64,000 nucleotides of DNA, taken from NCBI GenBank assembly GCA_025357835.1, contig JANYLM010000104.1, forward strand, positions 19,131 through 83,130, read 5' to 3'. Each line of letters opens with the position of its first letter. Position 1 is the stretch's first letter. Both the position numbers and the translations under genes were made by a program. Below are positions 1 through 38,139 of this stretch, in pieces. Origin of the DNA: Gammaproteobacteria bacterium. Lineage in GTDB: Bacteria > Pseudomonadota > Gammaproteobacteria > Steroidobacterales > Steroidobacteraceae. Under the pieces are notes generated by a model, which saw nothing but the letters and a program-made list of their open reading frames with translations, did no database searches and had not been told where the DNA came from.

Positions 1-32
1 ATCTATCGCGCCTACCGGGCTGAACCGATACC

Positions 33-758
33 GTGCAGCTTTTTCGATCGCTGCTTTTCACCACCTACATGATGGCATCGGCCTGCCTGTTCGGGGCGGC
101 AATGGCCTTGAGTTTTTGGCTGCCGTATCGCGCGCAATTCGCGATTGCGCGCAGCTGGGCGCGGATCTTATTATGGGTACTCGACCGCTTGTGCGGTCTG
201 AAGTACGTCGTAGAAGGCCGCGAGCGCATTCCGGCGGGCAATCACATCGTGATGAGCAATCACACTTCGGCGTGGGAAACCGTGGCGCAATTTCTGATTT
301 TCCCGCCGCAGGTCTGGGTGCTGAAACGAGAATTGCTGTGGATCCCCTTTGTGGGCTGGGGACTGAAACGGCTCAGGCCGATCGCGATCAACCGCGGCGA
401 GGGGCACCGGGCGGTGAACCAGGTGATCGAACAGGGCAAGGCGCGGCTGAGGGACGGCCTCTGGGTCATTATCTTCCCCGAAGGCACGCGAGTAGTTGCC
501 GGCGAAACCCGCAAATTCGGAGTAAGCGGCGCGATGCTTTCGATCGCCTCCGGCAAGAGCGTGGTGCCACTGTCGCACAATGCCGGCTCGTTCTGGCCCA
601 GACGCGGGTTTATGAAAAGGCCCGGCACGATACGCGTGGTCATCGGCGAACCCATCGAACCCGCGGACAAGGAACCTCGGCAACTAAACGAGGAAGTGAA
701 GCAATCCATCGAAGCGGGCCTTGCTCGCATTGCGGCGGCAGCCGGCGATACTCGCTAA
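33..758 (+). CDS. plsC: 1-acyl-sn-glycerol-3-phosphate acyltransferase (PlsC-like)
   Basis: Transfers an acyl chain to lysophosphatidic acid to give phosphatidic acid at the inner membrane. The 241-residue protein has an N-terminal hydrophobic stretch (about residues 5-30). It has the acyltransferase block NHTSAWE (76-82), an HX4E version of the usual HX4D motif that I associate with a proteobacterial subfamily. The second block FPEGTR (148-153) binds the glycerol phosphate. The start is a GTG. In Pseudomonas-like genomes plsC lies directly beyond gyrB; here about 10.7 kb of accessory genes separates them, which suggests insertions. Family call is secure; acyl specificity is unknown. Confidence 0.9.
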   Translation: MQLFRSLLFTTYMMASACLFGAAMALSFWLPYRAQFAIARSWARILLWVLDRLCGLKYVVEGRERIPAGNHIVMSNHTSAWETVAQFLIFPPQVWVLKRELLWIPFVGWGLKRLRPIAINRGEGHRAVNQVIEQGKARLRDGLWVIIFPEGTRVVAGETRKFGVSGAMLSIASGKSVVPLSHNAGSFWPRRGFMKRPGTIRVVIGEPIEPADKEPRQLNEEVKQSIEAGLARIAAAAGDTR

Positions 759-1096
759 GCCCCGCGCAATCTTTGCGCAGTGATGCGAATCATTCCTCCC
801 GCAACGGTGGCACGACGCGCAGTCAGTCCGAGAGAACTTAAGCGTTCCACCACCCACTGGGGCGAGAGCCGCAGTTTGGAGTAGTTACTCACGCGTAGCC
901 GCCACGAGTCGCCTTCACGCTGGTGCAACTGATCATGGACCGTCACGGTGGTGTCTGCATATTCCAGAAAGCAGGTCAGTATTCTCTCTTGGTCACTGCG
1001 AACCATGATGAAGCGTGCATCGCCTTGTAAGGGCGCAGCGTAAATTGCGGCTGGCGCGGACCCTACGCATCGTATACTTTTAAGATTCATGCTCAC
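755..1096 (-). pseudogene. Probable C-terminal remnant of a SAM-dependent methyltransferase
   Basis: A 113-residue minus-strand ORF whose C-terminal two thirds (LTCFLEYADTTVTVHD, then KLRLSPQWV) resembles the last part of small class I SAM-dependent methyltransferases. No GxGxG SAM-binding motif is present. Upstream there is no room for one, because its 5' end runs into the start of the convergently overlapping antiporter gene. I read it as a truncated relic or a mis-started ORF rather than a working enzyme. The methyltransferase link rests on remembered family patterns, not on a search. Confidence 0.45.
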
Positions 1097-2075
1097 AATT
1101 GTTCTGTTCCTTGGGTCGGCCGCCGCGATTTATTTTGCGTGTGAATTCTTCGTCAACGGCATTGAGTGGCTGGGCCGCAAGCTGGGGGTAGGAGAGACCG
1201 CTACCGGCACCATCCTGGCGGCTTTCGGCACCGCACTGCCGGAAACCGCGGTGACCTTCGTAGCCGTGGTTTTTGGACGCGATTCCGCGCAGAAGGACAT
1301 CGGCGTCGGCGCGGCCTTGGGCGGACCGTTGGTTCTCGCCACCATTTCCTACGCAGTCGTCGGCTTCGCCATGCTGTGGAACCGCCGGCGCCTCGGTCGC
1401 GCGACACAGGTCATCGAATGCGACCCGAACAAGCTGTGGCGCGATCAGGCCTGGTTCCTGTCCATTTTCGTGGCCAAGATTGCGCTCGGCCTGCTCGTGT
1501 TCGGTTACAAGCCTTGGCTGGGAGCATTATTTTTGCTCGCTTACGCGGTGTATTTGGCACGCGAACTGCGCGGTGCGCAGGTCTTGAACGAAGACGAACT
1601 CGTGCCCCTGAAGCTGCATCCCAGCGGCGACCCGGGCCTGGTATGGCCGCTGCTGCAAACCACTCTCGCCCTGCTCGCCATCGCGGTTGCGTCCAGAGTA
1701 TTCGTCGGTCAGCTCGAGGCCATAGGAATCTGGACCGGCCTGTCGCCGCAACTGGTGGCGCTGCTATTGAGCCCGGTGGCCACTGAATTGCCCGAGACCA
1801 TGAATGCGATCATCTGGGTGCGTCAGGGCAAGGAGCGCCTGGCACTTGCTAATATTTCGGGCGCGATGATGATACAGGCCACCGTCCCGACCGCTCTCGG
1901 CTTGTTCTTTACACCCTGGATGTTTTCGCGCGAGCTGATCGTCTCGGGAGTCATCACTATAGCGGCGGTTGCGGTGCTGCTGGGGCTGCTCTCCAAAAAT
2001 ACGGTTAATGCCCGATCGCTGATGCCGCTCGCCGGGCTGTACGCGATCTTTGTCGCCATCATCGCCATGATGTGA
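1089..2075 (+). CDS. CaCA-family sodium/calcium-type cation exchanger
   Basis: Predicted inner-membrane antiporter of the calcium:cation antiporter superfamily. The 328 residues contain about ten hydrophobic helices and two inverted alpha-repeats, each with a signature: GTALPE near residue 40 in the first half and ATELPE near residue 237 in the second. These acidic/Pro motifs form the ion-binding centre in the family. The hydrophilic loop between the halves (about residues 110-185) is longer than in the smallest homologues. The gene stands alone, converging on the kelch lipoprotein gene with only 19 bases between stops. The ion transported (Ca, Na, K) cannot be told from sequence. Confidence 0.85.
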   Translation: MLTIVLFLGSAAAIYFACEFFVNGIEWLGRKLGVGETATGTILAAFGTALPETAVTFVAVVFGRDSAQKDIGVGAALGGPLVLATISYAVVGFAMLWNRRRLGRATQVIECDPNKLWRDQAWFLSIFVAKIALGLLVFGYKPWLGALFLLAYAVYLARELRGAQVLNEDELVPLKLHPSGDPGLVWPLLQTTLALLAIAVASRVFVGQLEAIGIWTGLSPQLVALLLSPVATELPETMNAIIWVRQGKERLALANISGAMMIQATVPTALGLFFTPWMFSRELIVSGVITIAAVAVLLGLLSKNTVNARSLMPLAGLYAIFVAIIAMM

Positions 2076-2094
2076 AATCACTCGACAGAGTAGG

Positions 2095-3924
2095 TCAATT
2101 CACCGTGGTGCTTACTGGTGTCGAAGTGATTCCGTTGGCGACAACGGCGAGCAAACTTGCGCCGGTTTCCGCGGCCGCCGGAACGTCGAAGGATGTGGAA
2201 ACGATCGTGGTGCCGGTCGCGACGCCCATGCTGCTGTGGTCGTGTGTTCGCGCGTAGATGATATGACCCGACGCCGTATTGGTGATACGCACCAGCGGAT
2301 AGTTGGTGGCGGCGTTGAGTTCGTCACCGAAAGCGGCGGCCTGCGACAAACCGTTCAACTTCATCCCTGCAATGACGTAAGTGGAGCCCCGCGTTACTGT
2401 CGCCGGTGCATTGGTAATCGTGGGGGCCCAGGCCGGATTGGCGCTGCCGTTGCCGCTGTAAATACTCGTGAGCCCCCCGGTTACAAGCGCCTGACCATTG
2501 GGCAGTGGCAGAACAAAGTATTGGGTAGTGCCGCCATTAATTGGCAAAGCCCCCGTAACCGACATCTTGGCGCCGTCGTATTCATAGAATTTGCCGGAGT
2601 CCGCGGCAATCAGCACATGACCGGAGGGAAGCAAGGCGGCGCTAGCATCAGCAACGTCGTCGCCGGCGCCAAAATCCGGTCCCGCCCTGAAGCTGCCCGA
2701 GGCCGCGGGCGTCGGTCCGGGGGTGTAGATAACGGTGTGGGCAGCCATTCCGTTGGCTGCCGCACCTGTGGCGAAGACCGTGCCATCGGGCAGCAGAATT
2801 GCAGGCCCTACTTCCCCCGGTGGAATGTAAGTGCCCGCCGGACCCGGACCGTAGCTCACACCGCCAACAACCTGAATCGGCGCTGGACCGTAACTTAGAC
2901 CGCCAGGCGCGCTAGAAGGCGATGTCAGTCCATCCGGCGTATTTCCATCGCTGTACCATAACGCGGCGAGTGAGTCGTAATGTTCGGCATGGCGCGGATC
3001 GCCGACATCGATGCTGAAGAGTTCACCGTCCGGCAAGAGGGTCCAGCCCTCTTCGGCGAAATCGTCCGCCTTGCCCGGGGCGGGGAGTGATGTCCAGGAC
3101 AAGTTGACTGGGTCGAGGCGCCACATAGTGCGGCCCAGCTTAGTGCCAAAAACGAAGCTGCCATCTGGCAGGACTGCTGAAGGCGAATCACCAATATAGT
3201 TGACCCCGGGCGGTGCGCCGATCATCGTCCAGCTGTCGGCGACGGGGTCATACACGGCCGACATGTTGGTCAGACCGCTGGGCGCGAAGGGCAGGCTGTA
3301 ATTATTCTGGTTATATTCGCCGCCGACGAACAGCACCCGACCGTCGGCCAGCACGGCCTGCGCGCCATCGGCAGGCGCGTAACCAGCCGGTGAGCTCGAA
3401 AGTCGGCGCCAGGTGCCGTTGATGTAGTTGCCCTGCGAGTCCGGCGTCAGATTGTAAAATACGCCGGCATCGCTGATTGACTGCATCATGACGCTGCCAT
3501 TGGTCAGTAACAGACTCAAATATCCGGGTTCGGGCGGTTGGTTCGCGAGAGCGGTGAACGGCACGGTCGTGCAGATGACGGCTACATTGGTCACATTCGC
3601 GTTACCCACCGTGCCGGAGCCATTAGTAACCACACAATTCTGCGAAGGTACAGAGGGCTGCGTTGCCACGACTACTGAATAAGCAGCGCCACTCCCGAGA
3701 CTAGCGGGAAAGATGAACGGACCCGGCGCGAACACTGCGAGGCCGGGGCCGCCGTCATTCTGCAATGCCAAGCCTGCGCCGCTAAGTCCTGAGACCATGC
3801 CGCTGACAGTGTAGGTGGTCAACGGCGTGGATGCACCGCCACCACCACATGCGACAAGAAGCGCAACTTGAATCGATGTGACCACTACTTTCGCGAAATA
3901 TTGAGGCTCTATGTTCTTGGTCAC
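2095..3924 (-). CDS. Kelch/galactose-oxidase-like beta-propeller lipoprotein
   Basis: A secreted or outer-membrane lipoprotein of unknown role. The ORF track starts at 4008, but that extension runs through an attC-like repeat. A GTG at 3924 gives a clean type II signal peptide (KNIEPQYFAK, then VVVTSIQVALLVAC with lipobox LVAC); an ATG at 3954 is an alternative. After a GGGG spacer comes an Ig-like module (YTVSGMVSGLSGAGLALQNDGG) of a kind often repeated in proteobacterial surface proteins. Kelch-type repeats follow, with recurring LPDG and DGRVLFVGGEYN motifs, and then an IPT-like C-terminal domain. It is the leftmost gene of the attC-like array. Confidence 0.75.
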   Translation of the reverse strand: MTKNIEPQYFAKVVVTSIQVALLVACGGGGASTPLTTYTVSGMVSGLSGAGLALQNDGGPGLAVFAPGPFIFPASLGSGAAYSVVVATQPSVPSQNCVVTNGSGTVGNANVTNVAVICTTVPFTALANQPPEPGYLSLLLTNGSVMMQSISDAGVFYNLTPDSQGNYINGTWRRLSSSPAGYAPADGAQAVLADGRVLFVGGEYNQNNYSLPFAPSGLTNMSAVYDPVADSWTMIGAPPGVNYIGDSPSAVLPDGSFVFGTKLGRTMWRLDPVNLSWTSLPAPGKADDFAEEGWTLLPDGELFSIDVGDPRHAEHYDSLAALWYSDGNTPDGLTSPSSAPGGLSYGPAPIQVVGGVSYGPGPAGTYIPPGEVGPAILLPDGTVFATGAAANGMAAHTVIYTPGPTPAASGSFRAGPDFGAGDDVADASAALLPSGHVLIAADSGKFYEYDGAKMSVTGALPINGGTTQYFVLPLPNGQALVTGGLTSIYSGNGSANPAWAPTITNAPATVTRGSTYVIAGMKLNGLSQAAAFGDELNAATNYPLVRITNTASGHIIYARTHDHSSMGVATGTTIVSTSFDVPAAAETGASLLAVVANGITSTPVSTTVN

Positions 3925-3950
3925 GTTTGCATTCCCGCGGGGTCGGTTGG

Positions 3951-4069
3951 ACATAACGTAGTGAAGCATCGGTTTGGCGCGCGTGCCCCACGAAGCTGCT
4001 TGATCCACATCATCGATTCCCTCCGACTAACGAAGACTACCCGCCGTGCGCTCAAACCGTCGGTCAGAC
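3951..4069 (-). repeat. attC-like recombination site (degenerate)
   Basis: On the minus strand it runs from GTCTGAC to GTTATGT, close to the attC end boxes RYYYAAC and GTTRRRY with one mismatch each. The arms pair imperfectly (GACGGTTTGAGCGCAC against its partner), with an offset near the outer box. Its interior shares ATCGATGAT and CTTCGT words with the site at 5299-5427. The 165 bases between this site and the lipocalin gene stop at 4235 hold no convincing gene. Confidence 0.5.
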
Positions 4070-4234
4070 CGCGTGCAACACCGCGAGTCGAGTCGACAGA
4101 GGGAGCTCCACAGGAACGAAGCGCTCACCTCGAATGCCGATAGCGGTTGCGAAATACGTCGACTCGGCGTCGCTGAATTGGGTCTACGACATACGCCAGC
4201 GCACTCAGTCCAACTATCCCAATGCACGGATGTT

Positions 4235-4798
4235 TTATTTCAGACGCGACCAGACCAGCGTCCTAGTGACGGGCGTACCATCTCCCTGAGTTGTTGTGAA
4301 TTTTATCGTTAGAGCGTCACCGTCGACAGCAATGTGCCTGGTGATGTTCTTTCCGACATCGCCCGGGAACAGTGCGCTTTCAAGGTGATGCGTCACGATG
4401 CCTTGCGCTTCATCCACGGTGTAAGTTCCGAAATAGGCGTCGTAACCCAGCACCGTCTGTGACGTATCGTTCGTTCCTTTTATTGTGATCGCCTTGCGGC
4501 AGTCGTCCGCTAGCATGTCCACTGATCGGCCAGGCCTCGACAGTTGTGCCGCGACGTGTCCGTAAGGGTCGTATATTAGAATTCCTTTTGGCGTTGCCGA
4601 CAGACCCGGATCGACGATAACCTTCCCGTCGGTAGTGGTTGTCACTCTGGACTTAAGGCTCCATCCGCCGATCAGCAGAGCCGAAATGCTACGCCCCGGA
4701 AGGAGAGATGAGTTATCCGATGCATGGGTCGATTGTCCCAGCATCGTGTAGGCAATCGCGATGACAGTCAATGCAGCTAAACTCGGTTGTCGCGTCAC
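4235..4798 (-). CDS. Secreted lipocalin-like domain protein
   Basis: A 187-residue protein with a signal peptide (hydrophobic LAALTVIAIAYTMLG, predicted cleavage near THA-SDN). The mature part resembles the lipocalin-like family found in bacteria: an early GGWSLKS strand, then GILIYDPYGHVAAQL, a family-typical block, and a final strand LTRTLVWSRLK-like edge. Such proteins may bind small hydrophobic ligands, but no ligand is known here. It lies between two attC-like sites in the same orientation as its neighbours, which fits a mobile gene cassette. Base composition looks less GC-rich than that of the origin genes. Confidence 0.7.
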   Translation of the reverse strand: MTRQPSLAALTVIAIAYTMLGQSTHASDNSSLLPGRSISALLIGGWSLKSRVTTTTDGKVIVDPGLSATPKGILIYDPYGHVAAQLSRPGRSVDMLADDCRKAITIKGTNDTSQTVLGYDAYFGTYTVDEAQGIVTHHLESALFPGDVGKNITRHIAVDGDALTIKFTTTQGDGTPVTRTLVWSRLK

Positions 4799-4841
4799 GC
4801 CGTGTACCCCTTAGTTTTTACGAGAATAATCCTGACTCACA

Positions 4842-4897
4842 AGTCAACTTGCACCCGTATTTCAAAACGGGTGATTCCCCAAAAAGCTTGGTTAGAC
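4842..4897 (-). repeat. Short attC-like site
   Basis: On the minus strand a 56-base element from GTCTAAC to GTTGACT, with an internal perfect stem CACCCG/CGGGTG. The TAA stop of the DUF4304 gene lies inside the first box, as is common for integron cassettes. The 3' box has one mismatch to GTTRRRY. The internal stem could instead act as a terminator. Confidence 0.45.
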
Positions 4898-5293
4898 ACG
4901 CTGAGACCAATAGTCATGTGCGACCGGCAGTTTCGCAAGAACCTCGTTCGCGACGTCACCGTATCTGCCATTCTCGAATCGAAACCAACTGTCAGTGCCA
5001 GATCCTTCGCCAGGCTTTATGCGAAACCGATCATTGGGATGAATGTCCCAAGCTCTGACCTTAGATGCCGGAATGTGTTTACCGAAGTGCGTTGTTGTCC
5101 CGCCGATACCGCACCGAGATATCTCAATCAGGAAGCCGCCCCCGTTTACGTCGAATTGGAACGTCAGCAATTCGACGTGCGTGACGTGCACCCGCCTAAA
5201 GTGCGGATAAGAGCCCGTGAAGCCGCTTTCGCGGAGCACTGGCACGACGGAAGCCTTTAACGCTACGTCCATGGATTCACGCGGTGACAGCAT
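4892..5293 (-). CDS. DUF4304-like domain protein
   Basis: A 133-residue soluble protein without signal peptide. The pattern of a leading helix (LKASVVPVLRESGFTGS), a short strand with FRR, then LLTFQFDVNGGGFLIEIS resembles the DUF4304 family, whose function is unknown. It starts six bases from one attC-like site and its stop codon lies inside another, so it has the layout of a complete integron cassette. No promoter of its own is visible. The family assignment is by eye and only moderate. Confidence 0.6.
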   Translation of the reverse strand: MLSPRESMDVALKASVVPVLRESGFTGSYPHFRRVHVTHVELLTFQFDVNGGGFLIEISRCGIGGTTTHFGKHIPASKVRAWDIHPNDRFRIKPGEGSGTDSWFRFENGRYGDVANEVLAKLPVAHDYWSQRV

Positions 5294-5298
5294 TGTGT

Positions 5299-5427
5299 GT
5301 TTAACGATTAGGTGGAGCGGCGCGGGGCTGCGCCAACGACCAACGATGCCGATTTAATTCAATCATCGATCCCCTCCTTGGCTCAACGAAGACGTGGCCA
5401 CGCGATCGCTCGAACCGCTAGTTAGGC
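5299..5427 (-). repeat. attC-like recombination site
   Basis: A 129-base imperfect inverted repeat bounded on the minus strand by GCCTAAC and GTTAAAC, both exact matches to the attC box consensus. The two arms align (GGTTCGAGCGATCGCG against GGTGGAGCGGCGCG) with small bulges, as expected for the extrahelical bases that set attC strand choice. Between it and the stop of the next gene lie 49 bases with a near-match box, GGCTAAC. Confidence 0.65.
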
Positions 5428-5476
5428 TTCACGAAACGCAATCAGCTTCGTATTTCGCCACAGGTTGTTAGCCGAT

Positions 5477-5947
5477 TCAGTATCCCCTGACTACTATAGA
5501 CAAAACCATACCGCCCAGTTCCATATCTTCGGTGTAATCGATATCCACACTATCACCCCGATTTTCGGTGCCATACGACATCGACAGCGATATGACGTGC
5601 AGCTGTGTTCGTGGGGAAAATCGCGTTCTTGAGGAGAGGCAAGAGATCACCTCCTTGGCGTTATTTCCTGCGAATTCGGTGGCACCATGCCCCATGAGGC
5701 AGGCGCACACTTTTTTGGCCGATTCGTAACCATTGTGCTCACAACGTTTGGCCGCCAAGGCCGGATCGCCCTCGCCGTTGAAGTTGCTACCCCAACTGGT
5801 GTGGAACTTTAGGCCTCGTTCTTCATTTGGTTTGACTGACTCAACAAATTCGAGCAGCGGCCCGCATAAACCGTTGCTGGCCTGCGCAGTTTCGTGCCCA
5901 GACAAATATAGCGCGCCGAGAACCACAGGAAAAGCGAGGCGTAGCAT
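5477..5947 (-). CDS. Small secreted protein, unknown function
   Basis: The ORF track starts at 6091, but its first 48 residues (SNQRLERSRGATS and onward) are merely the translation of an attC-like repeat. The ATG at 5947, six bases from the end of that repeat, gives a clear signal peptide (MLRLAFPVVLGALYL, cleavage near AQA-SNG). The mature part of about 130 residues has at least five cysteines, among them NGLCGPLL, KRCEHNG and VCACLMGHG, suggesting disulfides in the periplasm. I do not recognise the family. Position and orientation are those of a gene cassette. Confidence 0.6.
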   Translation of the reverse strand: MLRLAFPVVLGALYLSGHETAQASNGLCGPLLEFVESVKPNEERGLKFHTSWGSNFNGEGDPALAAKRCEHNGYESAKKVCACLMGHGATEFAGNNAKEVISCLSSRTRFSPRTQLHVISLSMSYGTENRGDSVDIDYTEDMELGGMVLSIVVRGY

Positions 5948-5952
5948 TTGCG

Positions 5953-6080
5953 GCCTAACGATCAGGCTGAACGACGCGCGGCGGCGTTGCCGATGAACGA
6001 AGGCACTTGATCCCCATCCTCGACCTCGCTGGACCCTTACCGAAGTTGCACCGCGTGATCGTTCCAGCCGTTGATTAGAC
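5953..6080 (-). repeat. attC-like recombination site
   Basis: A 128-base element with strong arm pairing. On the minus strand the start GTCTAATCAACGGCTGGAAC pairs with the end GTTCAGCCTGATCGTTAGGC, leaving one extra G in one arm. The outer boxes are GTCTAAT (one mismatch) and GTTAGGC (exact). The stop codon of the upstream gene falls inside the first box. This is the best-formed of the series. Confidence 0.7.
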
Positions 6081-6362
6081 GCCGGACGCATTTACGCGAC
6101 GTCGCCGCCTTTGATACGCCATGATAATTCCCCAAACGGCGAGGGCTGGGAAAGCCAACACCCATAGGAAGCAAAAACAATTGGCAAGCCACGCTAATAT
6201 CCCGTCCGGCGCTATACCAAGAAACTGAGGCAGTTCCGAGACGCACCCTTTACTACCAGTTGTGCGGTCCACGACAAGCAGTAGACGGTTGTGCGAATTG
6301 AGCCATACCGAAAGTACTCCAGCGCTTAACAGAACTACGAAGATCGACTGGGGCGATTTCAT
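6075..6362 (-). CDS. Small membrane protein, unknown function
   Basis: A 95-residue protein with one hydrophobic segment near the start (IFVVLLSAGVLSVWL) and a longer one after the middle (ILAWLANCFCFLWVLAFPALAVWGIIMAY), ending in a basic cytoplasmic tail QRRRRR. This predicts two or three membrane spans. I do not recognise the family. Its ATG is five bases after a GTTAGGC box and its stop lies in the next box, so it occupies exactly one attC-to-attC unit. Confidence 0.6.
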   Translation of the reverse strand: MKSPQSIFVVLLSAGVLSVWLNSHNRLLLVVDRTTGSKGCVSELPQFLGIAPDGILAWLANCFCFLWVLAFPALAVWGIIMAYQRRRRRVNASGV

Positions 6363-6366
6363 AGGC

Positions 6367-6484
6367 GCCTAACAATTAATTAAGCGACGGATGTGGGGCA
6401 TAACTCCCAGACCGGATGCAACACATTTTGTTGCGGCGTGTGGTGCGCGATTGCCCGATCCGCCGCTCCGTGTGGCTGTTTACG
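6367..6484 (-). repeat. attC-like site at the edge of the array
   Basis: On the minus strand it ends with an exact GTTAGGC box. The outer 5' box is degraded. The inner arms pair well (GAGCGGCGGATCGGGC with its partner), and the centre has a perfect GCAACA/TGTTGC hairpin. The TAA of the dehydratase gene sits at its 5' edge, as in the other units. Confidence 0.55.
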
Positions 6485-7469
6485 CTACGGGTGGAGTAAG
6501 TCCGCCGAGCACTTGCAGGTAGCGCGCACGCTCGATATTGCCACCGCTCAGTACCACGGCAACATTCTTGTTCGCCATCCGCTGGCGCTCTTGCAATAAG
6601 GCCGCCAGCGGAGCCGCCCCCGCGCCCTCTGTCACCTGGTGTGCGTCGTCGAAATACACCCTTATCGCCTCGGCGATTTCGTCCTCACTGACCTCCACGA
6701 TGCGAGCAGCCCCACGACATATGGTTGCGATTGCCTCGGCATTGGGTTCTCGCGTCGCCAAGCCATCGGCAAAGGTTCGTGCCGACGGCGCGTTGGTGGC
6801 GCGACCGGCGGCGAAGGACAGCGCTGTGGCCGGAGCCTTGGCTGCGCCCACGCCGATGATTTCCGTCCTCAGGCCCAACAGGTCTCGCACGGTAAGCAAT
6901 CCGGAGATACCGGACCCCATTCCCACACCGACATACACGGCGTCCAAGTCGCCAACCGCCCGGAACAGTTCGAGGGCGTATGTGGCGACCCCGGTGACTA
7001 GGTCCTTGTGGAATGAGGGGACAAAGTGCAAACCCTCCGCTGCCGCCACTCGAAAGGCCTCGTGCTTTGCTTCGTCGAAGTCCTTGCCGAACTCGACCAC
7101 CCGGGCGCCGAAGGCGGCGATTGCGGAATTCTGGTCGAGGGAGTTGTTGTGGGGCACATAGATTGTCGCCGGAATCCCGCTGCGCGCAGCGGCGAAGGCA
7201 ATGGACTGACCATGATTGCCGCGCGTCGCCGAAATGACTCCGGGGATTTTTGGATCGGCACGCTGCAGGCGATCCAAGTACACCAGCCCCCCGCGGACTT
7301 TGAATGCGCCGGTGGGGGTGTGATTCTCGTGTTTCACCCACACCGTGCAGCCGGCACGTTTTTTAAGCTTCGGCCAGGCGTATTGCGGCGTCGGCGGCAC
7401 CACTCGATGCACCAGCGTCGCGGCCTGCTCCAATTCTGTCATCCCAAATGCGGTTTCGTACGAATTCAC
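6480..7469 (-). CDS. PLP-dependent threonine/serine dehydratase
   Basis: Predicted to deaminate threonine (or serine) to the 2-oxo acid and ammonia. The 329-residue protein is a fold type II PLP enzyme. The cofactor lysine lies in TGAFKVRGG (Lys57) and the phosphate loop is the glycine-rich VGVGMGSGISG (about 181-191). It lacks the C-terminal regulatory ACT-like domain of biosynthetic IlvA, so a catabolic or amino-acid-balancing role is likelier. It follows a MocR regulator and a LysE-type exporter on the same strand. Related family members act on hydroxy-amino acids, so the exact substrate is open. Confidence 0.8.
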   Translation of the reverse strand: MNSYETAFGMTELEQAATLVHRVVPPTPQYAWPKLKKRAGCTVWVKHENHTPTGAFKVRGGLVYLDRLQRADPKIPGVISATRGNHGQSIAFAAARSGIPATIYVPHNNSLDQNSAIAAFGARVVEFGKDFDEAKHEAFRVAAAEGLHFVPSFHKDLVTGVATYALELFRAVGDLDAVYVGVGMGSGISGLLTVRDLLGLRTEIIGVGAAKAPATALSFAAGRATNAPSARTFADGLATREPNAEAIATICRGAARIVEVSEDEIAEAIRVYFDDAHQVTEGAGAAPLAALLQERQRMANKNVAVVLSGGNIERARYLQVLGGLTPPVA

Positions 7470-7561
7470 GGCGTGGCCTTCGATGAGACGCCTGGTAGGC
7501 GCGAAAACTGGTCATGCCCAATTGATGGGCTTAGCAGGGGGTTTTGGTCGTGGACATTTCG

Positions 7562-8962
7562 CTAGGCTGCGGCTCGACAGCGCGATTCGAGGAATCGCCA
7601 CAGAATCGGCTCATCGCCATACGCCGCGTTGATTCTTAGATACCCGTGGCCCTGGCCGCTGATCGAGAACATCGTGCCCTTGGCCAGCAGAATGCCGATC
7701 GCCCGCGCATCGACGCAAAGCCGCTCCGGGTCAACGCCCGTTGGCAGCCGGCACCAAAGGAAAATACCGTCCGTCGCCGACTGCTCGATGATTAAACCCG
7801 CACGGCGCAGCGCGGCTATCGACGTCGCGCGTGCGGGCCCGAGCCGATCGCGCAGCCGCTCGGTGTGTTTGCGATATTTGCCGCTGGCGAGCAGCTCACG
7901 GAGGACGAATTCATCCAGTGCCGATCCCGAAAGAACCGCGAGAATCTTCGAGTCGACTAACTGAGGAACCAGCGCCTCCGGAGCCGCGATAAACCCGATG
8001 CGCATACCGGGCCCCAGAACTTTCGTAAAGCTGCCGACATACAGCACTCGCTTCAGCTCATCGATTTGCGCGAGTGACACGACGGGTCGCGGCGCGAGGT
8101 CGGTATACACATGATCCTCTACCACGACGAAATTATACTTTTCGGCCAGGGTCAGAATGCCGTGGCAGTTCGCCGCGGTGGCGCTGGTTCCAGTCGGATT
8201 GTGGAGTACGGTTTGGGTGACGAACATGCGCGGCCGATGCAGGCGAGCGGCCGATTCGAGTGCGTCTAAGTCCGTGCCCTCCGCTATGCGCGGAATCGGG
8301 ATCAGGTGCGCACTGTGCGCTCGAAGCTGCGCATGCAGAACGAAGTAGCCCGGATCATCGACCAGTACGCTGTCGTTGGGCTTCAACAAGGTTCGGGCAA
8401 TCAAATCGAAGGCATGCGATGCGCCGAAGGTGACGACAATGCAGCGGGCCGCAATGGGAACGCCTGCCATTCGAATCCGCTCTGCAAGCAATTCCCGTAG
8501 ACCGGGGTCACCCTGTACCGGGGCCGACTCGAGCAATACGCCGGATCTCGCGACCTTCGACAATATGGATGACGGCACCGCGTCGGTCAGCCAACTACCC
8601 GGCAGGAAGCCGGATCCGGCAGGGACCGCGAAGTGATGTTGCTCCAGAGTCTGGCGGGCGAAGCCGAGGATGGGGTCCAAGCTCGCCAGCGGTCCCAGCT
8701 CGATCCGCGGCGCCGCGGCGCGGTTTCGAGCCGGCGCCACAAAGTAGCCGGCGCCGGCCCTGGCATCGATCAGCCCCTTGGCGCTGAGCCTCTCGAAAGC
8801 CGACGTGACCGTATAAACACTGACCCCGACGCGATGCGCCAGCTGGCGCACCGAGGGCAGTCGTGAGCCTTCGGGAAGCCGTCCGGACTCAATGAGTTCG
8901 CTAACTCGCTCGACCAGCTGGTCGGCGAGTGGTATGGGCGATTTGCGCACGACACTAAACAC
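7562..8962 (-). CDS. MocR-type (GntR/aminotransferase) transcriptional regulator
   Basis: A 466-residue regulator with an N-terminal winged helix of the GntR family (about residues 10-80, SRLPSVRQLAHRVGVSVYTV). It is fused to a fold type I aminotransferase-like domain that binds PLP (lysine in GSFTKVLGPGMR). Such proteins usually sense an amino acid or PLP itself and control neighbouring genes. Translation starts at a GTG immediately after the TGA of the LysE gene, so the two are coupled. A 13-base word found 38 bases upstream is repeated in front of the LysE gene and may be its operator. Confidence 0.88.
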   Translation of the reverse strand: MFSVVRKSPIPLADQLVERVSELIESGRLPEGSRLPSVRQLAHRVGVSVYTVTSAFERLSAKGLIDARAGAGYFVAPARNRAAAPRIELGPLASLDPILGFARQTLEQHHFAVPAGSGFLPGSWLTDAVPSSILSKVARSGVLLESAPVQGDPGLRELLAERIRMAGVPIAARCIVVTFGASHAFDLIARTLLKPNDSVLVDDPGYFVLHAQLRAHSAHLIPIPRIAEGTDLDALESAARLHRPRMFVTQTVLHNPTGTSATAANCHGILTLAEKYNFVVVEDHVYTDLAPRPVVSLAQIDELKRVLYVGSFTKVLGPGMRIGFIAAPEALVPQLVDSKILAVLSGSALDEFVLRELLASGKYRKHTERLRDRLGPARATSIAALRRAGLIIEQSATDGIFLWCRLPTGVDPERLCVDARAIGILLAKGTMFSISGQGHGYLRINAAYGDEPILWRFLESRCRAAA

Positions 8963-8963
8963 A

Positions 8964-9554
8964 TCAACCTCGCAAACTCAGTACGGCCGTGAGGACCAGA
9001 AGTGTACTCATAGTCAGATTGAATACTCTTCTATAGGTCGGCCGCAACAGCAGGTGTCTAACTCCGCTGCCGAACAGAGCCCAGACACTGACGCAGGGAA
9101 GGTTTACGACAAGAAACAGTCCACCCACCACCAAAAAGAGAAGTGGGAACGGCGTGTGCCGCGGTAGAAACACGGCTGCGGTTGTAATTGCCATGACCCA
9201 GGCCTTGGGATTGATCGCCTGAAAGAGCATGGCCAGCCAAATCGTGAAAGGCCGGCGCGTCTCGGTCTCTGCCACAGTACTTGCATTCAGCAGCTGCCAC
9301 GCAAGGTACAGGAGGTAGGCGGCCCCGCCCCAGGCCAGCACGGTATGTAGTATGGGAAACTCTTGAAAGACGATGCCGAGCCCAAGCGCGGTGAGCACCA
9401 TTTGCAGCGCCGCACCGAGGCCGATGCCGAAGATATGCGGCAGAGTCGCTCGATATCCAAAGGATGCCCCGGAGGCCGTCACCATGACATTGTTCGGACC
9501 CGGCGTAATCGACATCACGGCGTAGTACGTTGCTAGTGCGGGCAGGTCGATCAC
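8964..9554 (-). CDS. LysE/RhtB-family amino acid exporter
   Basis: A 196-residue inner-membrane protein with about six hydrophobic helices and the family start signature SITPGPNNVMV (about residues 15-25). Members export amino acids such as lysine, threonine or homoserine. It is the first gene of an apparent operon with the MocR regulator and the dehydratase, which suggests a system that lowers the intracellular level of one amino acid by export and deamination. Substrate not determinable from the sequence. Confidence 0.85.
   Translation of the reverse strand: MIDLPALATYYAVMSITPGPNNVMVTASGASFGYRATLPHIFGIGLGAALQMVLTALGLGIVFQEFPILHTVLAWGGAAYLLYLAWQLLNASTVAETETRRPFTIWLAMLFQAINPKAWVMAITTAAVFLPRHTPFPLLFLVVGGLFLVVNLPCVSVWALFGSGVRHLLLRPTYRRVFNLTMSTLLVLTAVLSLRG
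9001..9013. promoter_or_regulatory. 13-bp repeat AGTGTACTCATAG, copy 1
   Basis: Lies within the 3' end of the LysE gene, 38 bases upstream of the MocR GTG start. It is identical to the copy at 9581-9593. The placement before two starts in one operon suggests a regulator-binding word. Confidence 0.35.
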
Positions 9555-9580
9555 GAACTTTCCTCGGTATGAATCGAGTC

Positions 9581-9593
9581 AGTGTACTCATAG
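9581..9593. promoter_or_regulatory. 13-bp repeat AGTGTACTCATAG, copy 2
   Basis: Located 26 bases upstream of the LysE gene start in the intergenic region after the nitrile hydratase activator gene. Same orientation and sequence as copy 1. Confidence 0.35.
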
Positions 9594-9663
9594 CCCGGGA
9601 TGTTGAACCGAGGCACCCGAGCGCGCAGGCGGCAAACTGTGTTGGTTGCCTGACCGGAACAGT

Positions 9664-10059
9664 TTAACTATGGATTGTCTCTGGCAAGGTCACCGGCTTA
9701 CCGTGCGGCGTATGCCGGTAGGCGTCCGCCCACGCGACCTTGCGGGTGAGCAATGATTGTGGATCGCTCAGTCCCTTGGTCGACACCAAGCGTTCGAGGG
9801 CTGTGAGCCAATGGTGGTAGTACTTCGATTCGTCGTCGGGCTCTGTCGCGTTCGCCGCCTGTTTGATTTCACCCGCAAGAGTCGCAGCCCACTCCTTCCA
9901 TGTAAAATATCCCTGTTCAGACAGCTTCACCGCGAGGGCAAATGCCTGTGCCTGCCATGGCTCGGCAAAAATCGGCTCGCCGCCTTCGCGAGGAAGGGTA
10001 AGCAGGTCATCCAAGCGTTCGGTCTTAAGACCCGGTCTAGACAGGGTCAAGATAGTCAT
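9664..10059 (-). CDS. Nitrile hydratase accessory protein (activator, P14K-like)
   Basis: Helps load the metal and oxidise the active-site cysteines of nitrile hydratase. The start at 10059 ([10 protein letters not shown]) is preferred to the track start at 10125, because it gives 131 residues, the usual family length, and a 23-base overlap with the beta-subunit gene. The block FAEPWQAQAFALAVKLSEQG followed by FTWKEWAATLAGEI and YYHHWLTALERLV is typical of these activators, which share a fold with the beta-subunit N-terminus. Last gene of the alpha-beta-activator operon. Confidence 0.85.
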   Translation of the reverse strand: MTILTLSRPGLKTERLDDLLTLPREGGEPIFAEPWQAQAFALAVKLSEQGYFTWKEWAATLAGEIKQAANATEPDDESKYYHHWLTALERLVSTKGLSDPQSLLTRKVAWADAYRHTPHGKPVTLPETIHS

Positions 10060-10696
10060 CCCACAGATCGAGGTAAACCGAATCTCGGGGCTCGGCCTGC
10101 TCGCCCCACAATTCGCGAGCGGCAAAGCGCACCGAGTACAGGTGCTGCGGCTTTTCCCCTAGAAACTGGCAATTGGTATCCGGAAACACGAATACTCCGT
10201 GATCGCGAATTATGGTGCCGGTCCTGCCGCGCGCATACCGAGGAAGGCGCGTGTGCGTGGCGGGATGGATCTCGCGGGTGCGCACGGCCTGGCCCTCCCG
10301 ATGTCGCGGCGCAATCTTGAACTCACGGTTGGTAGGCGAGCCCTTCGAGACCATGGCGGCGACTTTATCCACCGTCAACGGTGGAGTGAGCTTAGGTTGC
10401 CCGAGAGCCGGATGACCCGTGGCCATTTCGTCCGCGGCTACGAGTCCCCGCTCAACCATCAACTTAGCGAAAGCGATGTATTGCCGCGCATAGTAGCTAG
10501 CCTGCAAATGTTCGGTGGGTGGTACTCGTTCGACAGCGTAGCGGCTTGCGTCGATATTCCATTTTCCCCAAGCTCCGGCGCCGCGGCGCATCGCAAACAG
10601 ACGACTCTCCCAGATCGCATGGAAGACGGGCTCGTTCTTTTCCGCAACCACGGGTCCCATCCCGTGCATTCCACCCATATCGTGAATTCCATTCAT
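10037..10696 (-). CDS. nthB: Nitrile hydratase beta subunit
   Basis: Non-catalytic partner of the alpha subunit in hydration of nitriles to amides. The 219-residue protein begins [14 protein letters not shown], the standard opening of beta subunits. It has [14 protein letters not shown] in the helical N-domain and a C-terminal SH3-like barrel with [15 protein letters not shown]. Its ATG overlaps the alpha-subunit TGA. No Sec or Tat signal is visible here, in contrast to the alpha subunit, so if the enzyme is exported this chain would have to be carried along as a complex. Confidence 0.9.
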
Positions 10697-11424
10697 GCTC
10701 GATCTCCCTGCCGCGACGGCAGGTCACGGGCTACGCCCACCATGGCATCCCGGGTTACCAGCAGAGCAAGCTCCTGCTCGTTCAAGTGCGCCGTGTCAGG
10801 CGGGCGTTCCGGAAGTACGAGGTAGCGAATTTCCGCCGTGCTGTCCCAAACGCGTACTTCAACATGCTCTGGAAGCACGACTCCAAACTCGCGCAGCACT
10901 CCACGCGGATCGATTACGGTGCGCGAGCGATACGGAGGGGATTTGTACCACACCGGGGGCAGTCCAAGGACCGGCCAGGGGTAGCATGAACACAGTGTGC
11001 AAACGACGATGTTATGCACGGAGGGCGTGTTTTCTACGACCACCATGTGCTCGCCCTGCATGCCGGAGTAGCCCAGTTCGGCGATGGCATGATCCGCGTT
11101 GCTCAGAAGTCTTTGCTTGTACGAAGTGTCATTCCATGCGCGCGCCACGACGCGTGCGCCATTGCGCGGGCCGATCTTGTGTTCATACGTGTCGACCAGC
11201 GCATCGAGAGCGGACTTGTCTACCAGTCCTTTTTCCACCAACAAGGACTCCAGCGCCATGACCCGTAACGCCACATCCGATGGGACGTCTTGGTGATCAT
11301 GATCGTGAGCGTGCGCATGCTCACCGTTCTGGCCCGCTTCGCCGGCTTTGGAGGCGCCTGCGGCTATAGGCGCACCCGCCACGGTTATTGCACCGGCCAG
11401 GAAATCCCGTCGAGTGGTTTCCAT
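10693..11424 (-). CDS. nthA: Nitrile hydratase alpha subunit, cobalt type, with Tat-like leader
   Basis: Carries the metal centre of nitrile hydratase. The claw motif is VCTLCSC (141-147); Thr in the second claw position marks the cobalt type, while iron enzymes have Ser. The 243-residue protein opens with [19 protein letters not shown], a good twin-arginine signal (RRDFL, hydrophobic core, AxA-like end). A His/Asp-rich linker ([12 protein letters not shown], 35-46) follows, and the conserved domain starts near residue 50. His-rich N-termini occur in the family; a Tat leader is unusual because known enzymes are cytoplasmic. First gene of its operon. No amidase gene is nearby. Confidence 0.88.
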
Positions 11425-11454
11425 TGCCCGCTCCTTTGCGCCGCGATGCCTTCG

Positions 11455-14103
<2,649 letters not shown>

Positions 14104-15228: not shown

Positions 15229-16326
15229 TCACAGTCTCATCGGCATCACGACATAGCGAGCCGTGGCATTGCCCGGCGAGCGAATCAGGCAGCTGCTATT
15301 GCTGTCGGTGAGGCCAAGTTCAACTTCTTGGCCATCGATGGCCGCCAAGGCATCAAGCAAATAATTGACATTGAACCCCACCTCGAGATCGATGCCGTCG
15401 TAGCTAACCTCGATCTCCTCCTCTGCTTCCTCTTGCTCGGGGTTATGAGCCTGAACCGTGATTACGTTCTTCTTCACTGTGACTCGAATGCCGCGGTATT
15501 TTTCATTGGAAAGGATCGCCGTTCGCTGCAGAGCCTGCCGCAAAATATCTCGATCGGCACGGATCGTGGTGGCTGGCAACGCCGGGATAACCCGTGAATA
15601 TTCCGGAAATCGGCCGTCAATGAGCTTCGAAGTGAAGCGAACGTCGCCGACCTGGGCACGAACGTGATTTGTTCCAATAGCCAACTCCGCAACTCCCTCA
15701 GCAGTGAGCACCCGCTGCAGCTCCAGCACGCCCTTGCGAGGCACGATAACCTGTTGCGAGGTCTTCGCCTTCGCCGCCAACGCAGTTTCGCACAGCGCCA
15801 GTCGGTGTCCGTCGGTGGCAACCGCCCGCAGCACCATGCCGTCGATCTCGAGCAGCATACCGTTCAGGTAGTAGCGAACGTCTTGCTGCGCCATGGAAAA
15901 ATGCGTCTTTTCCAGCAAACGCTGCAATTCCTTACGGGGTACCTGCACGGTCTGCTGCGCATTGATGTCGTCGATCACCGGAAATTCCGCGGCGGGCAGC
16001 GTTGACAAACTGAACCGGCTACGCCCGGCTTTGATGACCACCTTTTCCCCTTCGAGGCTCAGGGATACCGACAGCTTTTCCGGCAATGCCCGCAAAATGT
16101 CCAAGAATTTGCGGCCGGGGACGGTGATATCTCCCGCGTCCTGAACGGCTACTTCGGTGGAAGCCACCAGCTCCACCTCCAGATCAGTGGCGGTAATCGA
16201 CAATTGCCCCTGGCGAACACCCAGCAGCACATTGGCCAGTACCGGCATGGTCTGGCGCCTCTCCACGACGCCGATCACCGCCTGCAGTGGAGCCAACAAT
16301 TTCTCACGCTCAGCCGTCAATTTCAT
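15229..16326 (-). CDS. dnaN: DNA polymerase III beta subunit (sliding clamp)
   Basis: Ring-shaped processivity clamp. The ATG at 16326 (MKLTAEREKLLAPLQAVIGVVERR) is preferred over the GTG at 16332, as it matches the family N-terminus. The three clamp domains cover 365 residues and the protein ends YVVMPMRL, the normal clamp C-terminus. It lies between recF and the probable origin. Confidence 0.96.
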   Translation of the reverse strand: MKLTAEREKLLAPLQAVIGVVERRQTMPVLANVLLGVRQGQLSITATDLEVELVASTEVAVQDAGDITVPGRKFLDILRALPEKLSVSLSLEGEKVVIKAGRSRFSLSTLPAAEFPVIDDINAQQTVQVPRKELQRLLEKTHFSMAQQDVRYYLNGMLLEIDGMVLRAVATDGHRLALCETALAAKAKTSQQVIVPRKGVLELQRVLTAEGVAELAIGTNHVRAQVGDVRFTSKLIDGRFPEYSRVIPALPATTIRADRDILRQALQRTAILSNEKYRGIRVTVKKNVITVQAHNPEQEEAEEEIEVSYDGIDLEVGFNVNYLLDALAAIDGQEVELGLTDSNSSCLIRSPGNATARYVVMPMRL

Positions 16327-16546: not shown

Positions 16547-17905
16547 CTATCCCGCCAGGGTTCTCAACAGGTTCATATAATCCTCGCCGATTCGCCGTTC
16601 AGTCTCACGTAACTCCTTGACTCGCCTGCAGGCATGCAACACCGTCGTATGATCTCGGCCGCCGAACGCGTCTCCGATCTCCGGCAGGCTGTGATTGGTC
16701 AACGCCTTTGCCAATGCCATCGCGACTTGGCGCGGCCGGGCAATGGAACGGCTGCGACGTTTCGACAACAAATCGGCAATTCTAATTTTGTAGTATTCCG
16801 CCACCGTCTTTTGGATATTTTCCACGGTCACCAGTTTTTCTTGCAGCGCCAATAGGTCGCGCAACGCTTCCTTGACCAAGTCCAGAGTGATAGGCCGCCC
16901 GGTAAAGTTCGATGTCGCCACCACTCTGCGCAAGGCGCCTTCGAGTTCGCGAACATTCGAGCGAATGCGCTTGGCAATGAAAAAGGCCACTTCCTCCGGC
17001 AAATCGACGTGCGAAATCGCTGCCTTGCTCATCAAGATTGCAACACAAGTTTCAAGCTCCGGAGGCTCGATGGCCACCGTCAAACCCCAGCCGAATCTCG
17101 ACTTCAAACGCTCCTCAAGCCCGTCGACCTCTTTGGGGTAGCGATCGCAGGTCAAGATCACTTGCTGCTGGCTTTCCAACAGGGCATTGAAGGTATGAAA
17201 GAACTCCTCTTGGGAGCGTTCCTTACCGGCAAAAAACTGGATATCGTCAATCATTAACGCGTCCAAGGAACGGTACGCCGTCTTGAAATCGTTGATGGTG
17301 TTGTGCTGCAGTGCCTTCACCATGTCGCTGACGAATCGCTCGCTATGCACGTAGGCCAGCCGTGCTTCCGAGTTGTTTTCTTTGATCTTGTTGGCCACCG
17401 CATGCATGAGGTGGGTCTTGCCGAGGCCGACGCCGCCATAAATAAACAGCGGGTTATAGGCCCTCCCAGGATTCCCCGCGACCTGAATCGCGGCTGCCTT
17501 GGCGAGCTGATTACTTTTTCCCTCGACGAATCCTTCGAAGGTGAAACTGGCGTTAATCGGTGCGCCAAGCACCGAGGGCACAGGCCTGCGAGCCTTCGCC
17601 GGAGCGCCGTTGACCGCGGATTGGCCGCCATTGACCGCTACCACCGGGGTCGAGACGCCGGCCCGAGTCCCCACATCGAGCACCAGCTCGGGAGCCGGGT
17701 CCTCGGCGAAGGCCCGAATGAGCTCGCGGATCCTGGGCAGGGAGTTCTGGCCCAGCCACTCAATAACATAGCGATTAGGCGCCAGGAGCCTCAGTTCCCC
17801 GTCCCGTTCGATGGCCTGAAGGGGTCGCACCCAGGTATTGAACTGCTGCTCCGGGAGTTCGCTCTCGAGCACTCGCAGACAGCGGTTCCATAGCGACTCC
17901 GACAA
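16547..17905 (-). CDS. dnaA: Chromosomal replication initiator DnaA
   Basis: Binds DnaA boxes and opens the origin. I chose the TTG at 17905, because it gives [13 protein letters not shown], the normal DnaA beginning, and has GAGGAG seven bases upstream; the track start at 17932 adds nine unlikely residues. Domain I is followed by a short linker. The AAA+ domain has Walker A ([13 protein letters not shown]) and Walker B (MIDDIQFF). The C-terminal DNA-binding domain has the signature [13 protein letters not shown]. Divergent from rpmH. Confidence 0.95.
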
Positions 17906-37974: not shown

Positions 37975-38008
37975 CACAACCGCCGGGAAAAAATACAGGC
38001 CTGTCGCC

Positions 38009-38037
38009 TTGATGGAGCGGGGCCGCCTCTCTATAAT
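38009..38037 (+). promoter_or_regulatory. Predicted sigma-70 promoter of the atp operon
   Basis: TTGATG (38009-38014), a 17-base spacer, then a perfect TATAAT (38032-38037). Transcription would begin near 38044, which argues against the TTG at 38050 as the atpI start and for the ATG at 38140. Confidence 0.7.
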
Positions 38038-38139
38038 GCGCCGGCTATTTTGACTGGCGACGGCTCTTATGTGCAAATCGAAGGTAGCGCGCCGTTCGCC
38101 ACGCCGATATGCGTCGGCGCCGATCCGGTTCCCTTCGCG

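Follow-up and report, generated by a model that had tools for sequence, protein, structure and literature searches.

CALINs consist of at least two clustered attC sites with their cassette genes and no intI nearby, and a broad survey counted 2961 of them against 2760 complete integrons (PMC9024848). In Xanthomonas, the sedentary chromosomal integrons have a broken intI, and more cassette clusters lie at other chromosomal positions; inactivation of intI is widespread in this genus, where CALINs occur apart from the integrase locus in about half of the genomes (PMC12444791). Both CALINs and the loss of intI have been amply documented, as in Xanthomonas, and the array described here is another example of this known kind. 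It lies in a 64-kb window, the whole stretch of DNA that was analysed (G000:C141:19131-83130), within a draft genome of 4.05 Mb (148 contigs, 94% complete). With the Xanthomonas integrons the array shares homogeneous, lineage-typical attC sites; it differs from them in that its lineage is uncultured and in its location, which is not beside ilvD but near oriC, with a threonine dehydratase gene on one side and a gene for a kelch lipoprotein on the other. From CALINs as commonly defined it is distinguished by what appears to be an attI core retained at its start and by its degenerate distal attC sites. The complete integrons of two relatives from the same genus, G003 and G010, have the same attC type of ~128 bp, and that of G003 also a similar attI core, but both encode a full-length IntI, whereas the genome studied here does not.

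attC sites and cassette genes

The attC calls rest on two covariance models of our own, not on the model of IntegronFinder. R1 was trained on 27 attC sites from relatives and from another contig of the same genome (C144), R2 on 33 genus sites of the ~128-bp type, and the window sequence was excluded from both. These models replaced a home-made box-and-arm scan, which gave both good sites together with many chance ones. With R1 and R2, two strong attC sites and a degenerate one were found within ~2.1 kb (Table 1), and the next-best R1 match in the window reached 16 bits (37999-38112). The opposite strand scored far lower (17.8 vs 108.8 bits) and, therefore, the assignment of the elements to the minus strand in the initial annotation is correct.

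Table 1. The array and its flanking genes, in positions of the window; scores are those of the models or profiles named.
Feature	Position	Strand	Evidence or remark
Cation (Ca2+/Na+-type) exchanger, host gene, one flank of the empty site	1089-2075	+	function from sequence only
Gene for a kelch lipoprotein at the array boundary, not a cassette	2095-3954	-	chromosomal orthologues
attC4, degenerate	3951-4069	-	R2 34.1 bits, E 3e-7; R1 6.1 bits
Cassette gene 4, Lipocalin_5 protein, 187 aa	4235-4798	-	PF13924, E 6e-21
Isolated R'' box of the lost attC3	4891-4897	-	GTCTAAC, exact RYYYAAC, contains the DUF4304 stop
Cassette gene 3, DUF4304 protein, 133 aa	4892-5293	-	PF14137, E 1.5e-12
attC2, ~128-bp genus type	5299-5427	-	R'' GCCTAAC, R' GTTAAAC; R1 49.6 bits, E 4e-11; R2 108.8 bits
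Cassette gene 2, secreted Cys-containing protein, 156 aa	5477-5947	-	homologues in few family genomes
attC1, ~128-bp genus type	5953-6080	-	R'' GTCTAAT, R' GTTAGGC; R1 63.7 bits, E 5e-15; R2 98.4 bits
Cassette gene 1, predicted membrane protein, 95 aa	6075-6362	-	ORF; stop TAA inside R'' of attC1
Putative attI core CCGTCGCTTAATTAATTGTTAGGC, array boundary beside threonine dehydratase	6367-6390	-	likeness to attI cores of relatives
Spacer from the threonine dehydratase stop to the attI core, ~90 bp	6391-6479		no recognisable intI remnant
Threonine dehydratase, host gene, other flank of the empty site	6480-7469	-	NF004771, 475.6 bits

The fold of an attC site, in which the R and L boxes pair and an extra base in L'' stays unpaired, was matched by R1 and R2 in attC1 and attC2 only. 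Among the 33 genus sites the stem pairing is conserved (90.3% of cells paired vs 19-41% when slid), with some two-sided stem changes and with the unpaired L'' base retained, and attC sites of genus relatives share up to 76% and 81% identity with the two good sites of the window. When R1 was run over the whole 4.05-Mb genome, only four high-scoring sites were obtained, two in the array and two on C144, the latter both belonging to the training set of the model.

Ordinary intergenic repeats or terminators could display boxes of the RYYYAAC/GTTRRRY kind by chance. This reading is already refuted for attC1 and attC2 by their E-values and by the genome-wide restriction of high-scoring sites to this array and to the vicinity of an intI fragment on C144, and as an account of the locus it is scarcely credible; it is probably true of one element, 4842-4897, taken as a whole. 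Of the five attC-like elements first proposed, three were recovered by the covariance models, attC4 only in a degenerate form that keeps R'' and the loop and has a decayed or replaced 3' arm. The element at 4842-4897 comes down to its R'' box, as neither model found a full attC there and the box has no partner arm (folding z -1.1); this box is the trace of a decayed attC site. The element at 6367-6484 ends in the putative attI core. As an attC site it offers a palindromic stem (folding z -2.5) and, in GTTAGGC, a good R', but it lacks R'' and whole-site support from R1 or R2, and was rejected. In a search against Rfam, no match in the window reached the gathering score, and those near the array were chance matches only. 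Elsewhere in the genome, a weak single attC-like match (G000:C93:59968-60067; 23.4 bits, E 0.07) is possibly a lone site or chance.

The four small genes share one orientation, as had been noticed from the start. Stop codons fall in R'' for two of them (6075 and 4892), and start codons lie shortly past R' for three. A third stop that had been assigned to a first box, at 6480, is instead the regular stop codon of the threonine dehydratase, whose gene ends at about the same place in relatives. The array has a GC content of 0.545 and its cassette genes of 0.53-0.545, against 0.598 for the window. The product of cassette gene 1 has no match in Pfam, NCBIfam or PADLOC, and no defence-system profile matched any of the cassette proteins. 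The genes turn over between genomes: the DUF4304 gene has no homologue in the 149 other genomes of the family, and the best relative of the Lipocalin_5 protein outside its own genome (65%) belongs to another genus (G024). Homologues of cassette gene 2 were found among the 150 family genomes only in G021 (weak), G031 (51%) and G130 (38%); in G031 the gene sits just past an attC array, and in G130, a member of another genus, an attC follows it directly.

Empty site, array boundaries and putative attI core

In G008 and G015, of the same genus, the exchanger and threonine dehydratase genes are directly convergent, with a gap of a few tens of bases or less. Therefore, the 4.4 kb that separate them in the window represent an insertion. 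The exchanger has orthologues of 83-87% in G008, G014 and G015. Judging by eye, two contigs of G014, whose ends seemingly share sequence, suggest that other genes, of AraC/DJ-1 and GFA-like type, occupy the locus in that genome. The proposal of an integrase-less cassette array thus holds on the two points on which it could have failed, since attC covariance matches exist and the array is not conserved.

A misjoin of the array to this origin-proximal contig during assembly would also yield such a picture. Repetitive attC arrays break draft assemblies, in which integrons can be hidden or split (PMC9024848), and the arrays of several relatives are located at contig ends. Nevertheless, the 83-kb contig continues with host genes beyond both ends of the array, and the attC sites belong to the genus type, which makes an artefact highly improbable.

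On the distal side, the array is bounded by the kelch gene. Considered as a fifth cassette, this gene was ruled out because its orthologues in G018, G021 and G024 (74-77%) are chromosomal and have no attC match near them; only ~19 bp, with no attC, lie between it and the exchanger stop. The end of the array, the 3' part of attC4 included, can be aligned with the region upstream of the G021 kelch gene (score 54; best of 500 shuffles 43), so that the array ends distally within the damaged attC4.

On the opposite side, the array appears, from its sequence, to begin with an attI core. This core matches that of G003, which adjoins a full intI, at 18/20 positions (next best in the 64-kb window 14/20) and that of G038 at 17/20 (next best 13/20), and by eye it agrees at 22/24 positions with the attI-like core that opens an integrase-less array of G008. 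The aligned attI and attI-like sites have GTC, an AT-rich stretch and GTTAG in common. In contrast, its comparison with the platform core on C144 gave a best match in the window of 12/17, which is background. The window core therefore resembles those of G003 and G008 more than that of C144, so that simple, recent copying of a single platform does not account for the two arrays of this genome. The spacer between the core and the threonine dehydratase gene shows similarity to relatives hardly above shuffles (best p 0.03 among seven).

Beyond the threonine dehydratase gene, towards gyrB, the window carries MocR-type, LysE-type and nitrile-hydratase-like genes (7562-11424), and in G008 the dehydratase adjoins gyrB. 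This flank of the origin seems prone to insertions.

Integrase genes and the probable origin of the array

We took a full-length intI above the TIGR02249 cut-off of 265 as the mark of a complete integron. No such gene was found by this search in the draft genome, from whose assembly an intact intI could be missing; an attI core, by its sequence, does lie beside the array. The statement that the window holds no integrase was borne out, with no TIGR02249 match on C141 and no IntI match by tblastn in window positions 1-12000, the spacer included. The best TIGR02249 match of the genome (105.8 bits) is an N-terminal IntI fragment on C144, a 130-aa ORF without the catalytic half, which adjoins a second array of the same attC type. 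This second integron (L012:14786-17531) comprises the IntI fragment, an attI core and an array heading to the contig end, with attC sites at 15709-15836 and 17403-17531 and a degenerate one near 16672. The search for intI beyond the window, advised in the initial annotation, thus revealed a truncated copy and a further array.

Recombination by IntI takes place at G/TT, between attI and the bottom strand of attC in its folded form. At the locus, gene-attC units of uniform orientation follow an attI core, an anatomy that fits the product of such recombination. We consider the locus to be, probably, a degraded chromosomal integron remnant, that is, a CALIN that has kept its attI core, to which an intI would formerly have been adjacent. 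An integron integrase would have captured the small orphan genes singly as cassettes at an attI near the origin, between the threonine dehydratase and kelch lipoprotein genes, acting through the folded bottom strand of ~128-bp genus-type attC sites. The intI that built the array would since have been lost and the distal attC sites have decayed, so that an attI core and the four cassette genes are what remains.

The main rival to a remnant formed in place is seeding in trans, in which cassettes entered an attG-type secondary site of the chromosome, before the kelch gene, through an integrase acting from another place in the genome; intI would never have been here, and the likeness to attI would be that of a good secondary site. 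Integration at attG was reportedly described by Loot et al. in 2024. The second integron on C144, the insertion between intact genes and the lack of any intI remnant at the locus are in line with such seeding, as are the CALINs away from intI in about half of the Xanthomonas genomes (PMC12444791). The missing remnant, a core unlike that of the C144 platform and the draft state of the genome count against the remnant reading. However, a match of 18/20 to a true attI core, reaching into the GTCG outside the AT-rich part, exceeds what a secondary site would need, and we regard seeding at an attG-type site as unlikely. Given the strength of the attI match, we favour the in-place remnant, with intI lost and attI kept, over the other readings. 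The array would now be inactive; as the other integron of the genome has only a truncated intI, it is probably frozen, barring the supply of an integrase in trans. It is tentatively conceivable that the genome held two platforms with different attI cores and the same attC type, both now without integrase, which shared cassettes before being frozen, the origin-proximal one perhaps seeded in trans by the other.

Probable integron decay in the genus

Complete IntI proteins are present in the genus relatives G003, G004, G010 and G020, those of G003 and G010 being full-length matches to TIGR02249 (387.9 and 444.5 bits). The ~128-bp attC type occurs in 9 of the 23 genus genomes, and in G007, G008, G014, G017 and G018 it is found without an IntI above the cut-off. 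Therefore, intI seems to have been lost repeatedly in this genus, although integrons may go unseen or be split in draft assemblies (PMC9024848). The locus adds an uncultured gammaproteobacterial genus in which the stages of integron decay can be traced, from an intact intI, through a truncated intI and an attI core with an array without intI, to an empty site at a defined position near the origin. The empty site also offers a comparison for how a cassette cluster ends up away from its integrase.

Further clusters were observed in these relatives. G007 and G017, whose genomes have only partial or no IntI matches, contain attC clusters (L235, L236, L237 and L238). On contig C9 of G008 (L232:7061-8291), an attI-like core and attC sites occur with no adjacent intI, and just beyond that array, by eye, there is an ORF for an IS110-type transposase (9227-10297).
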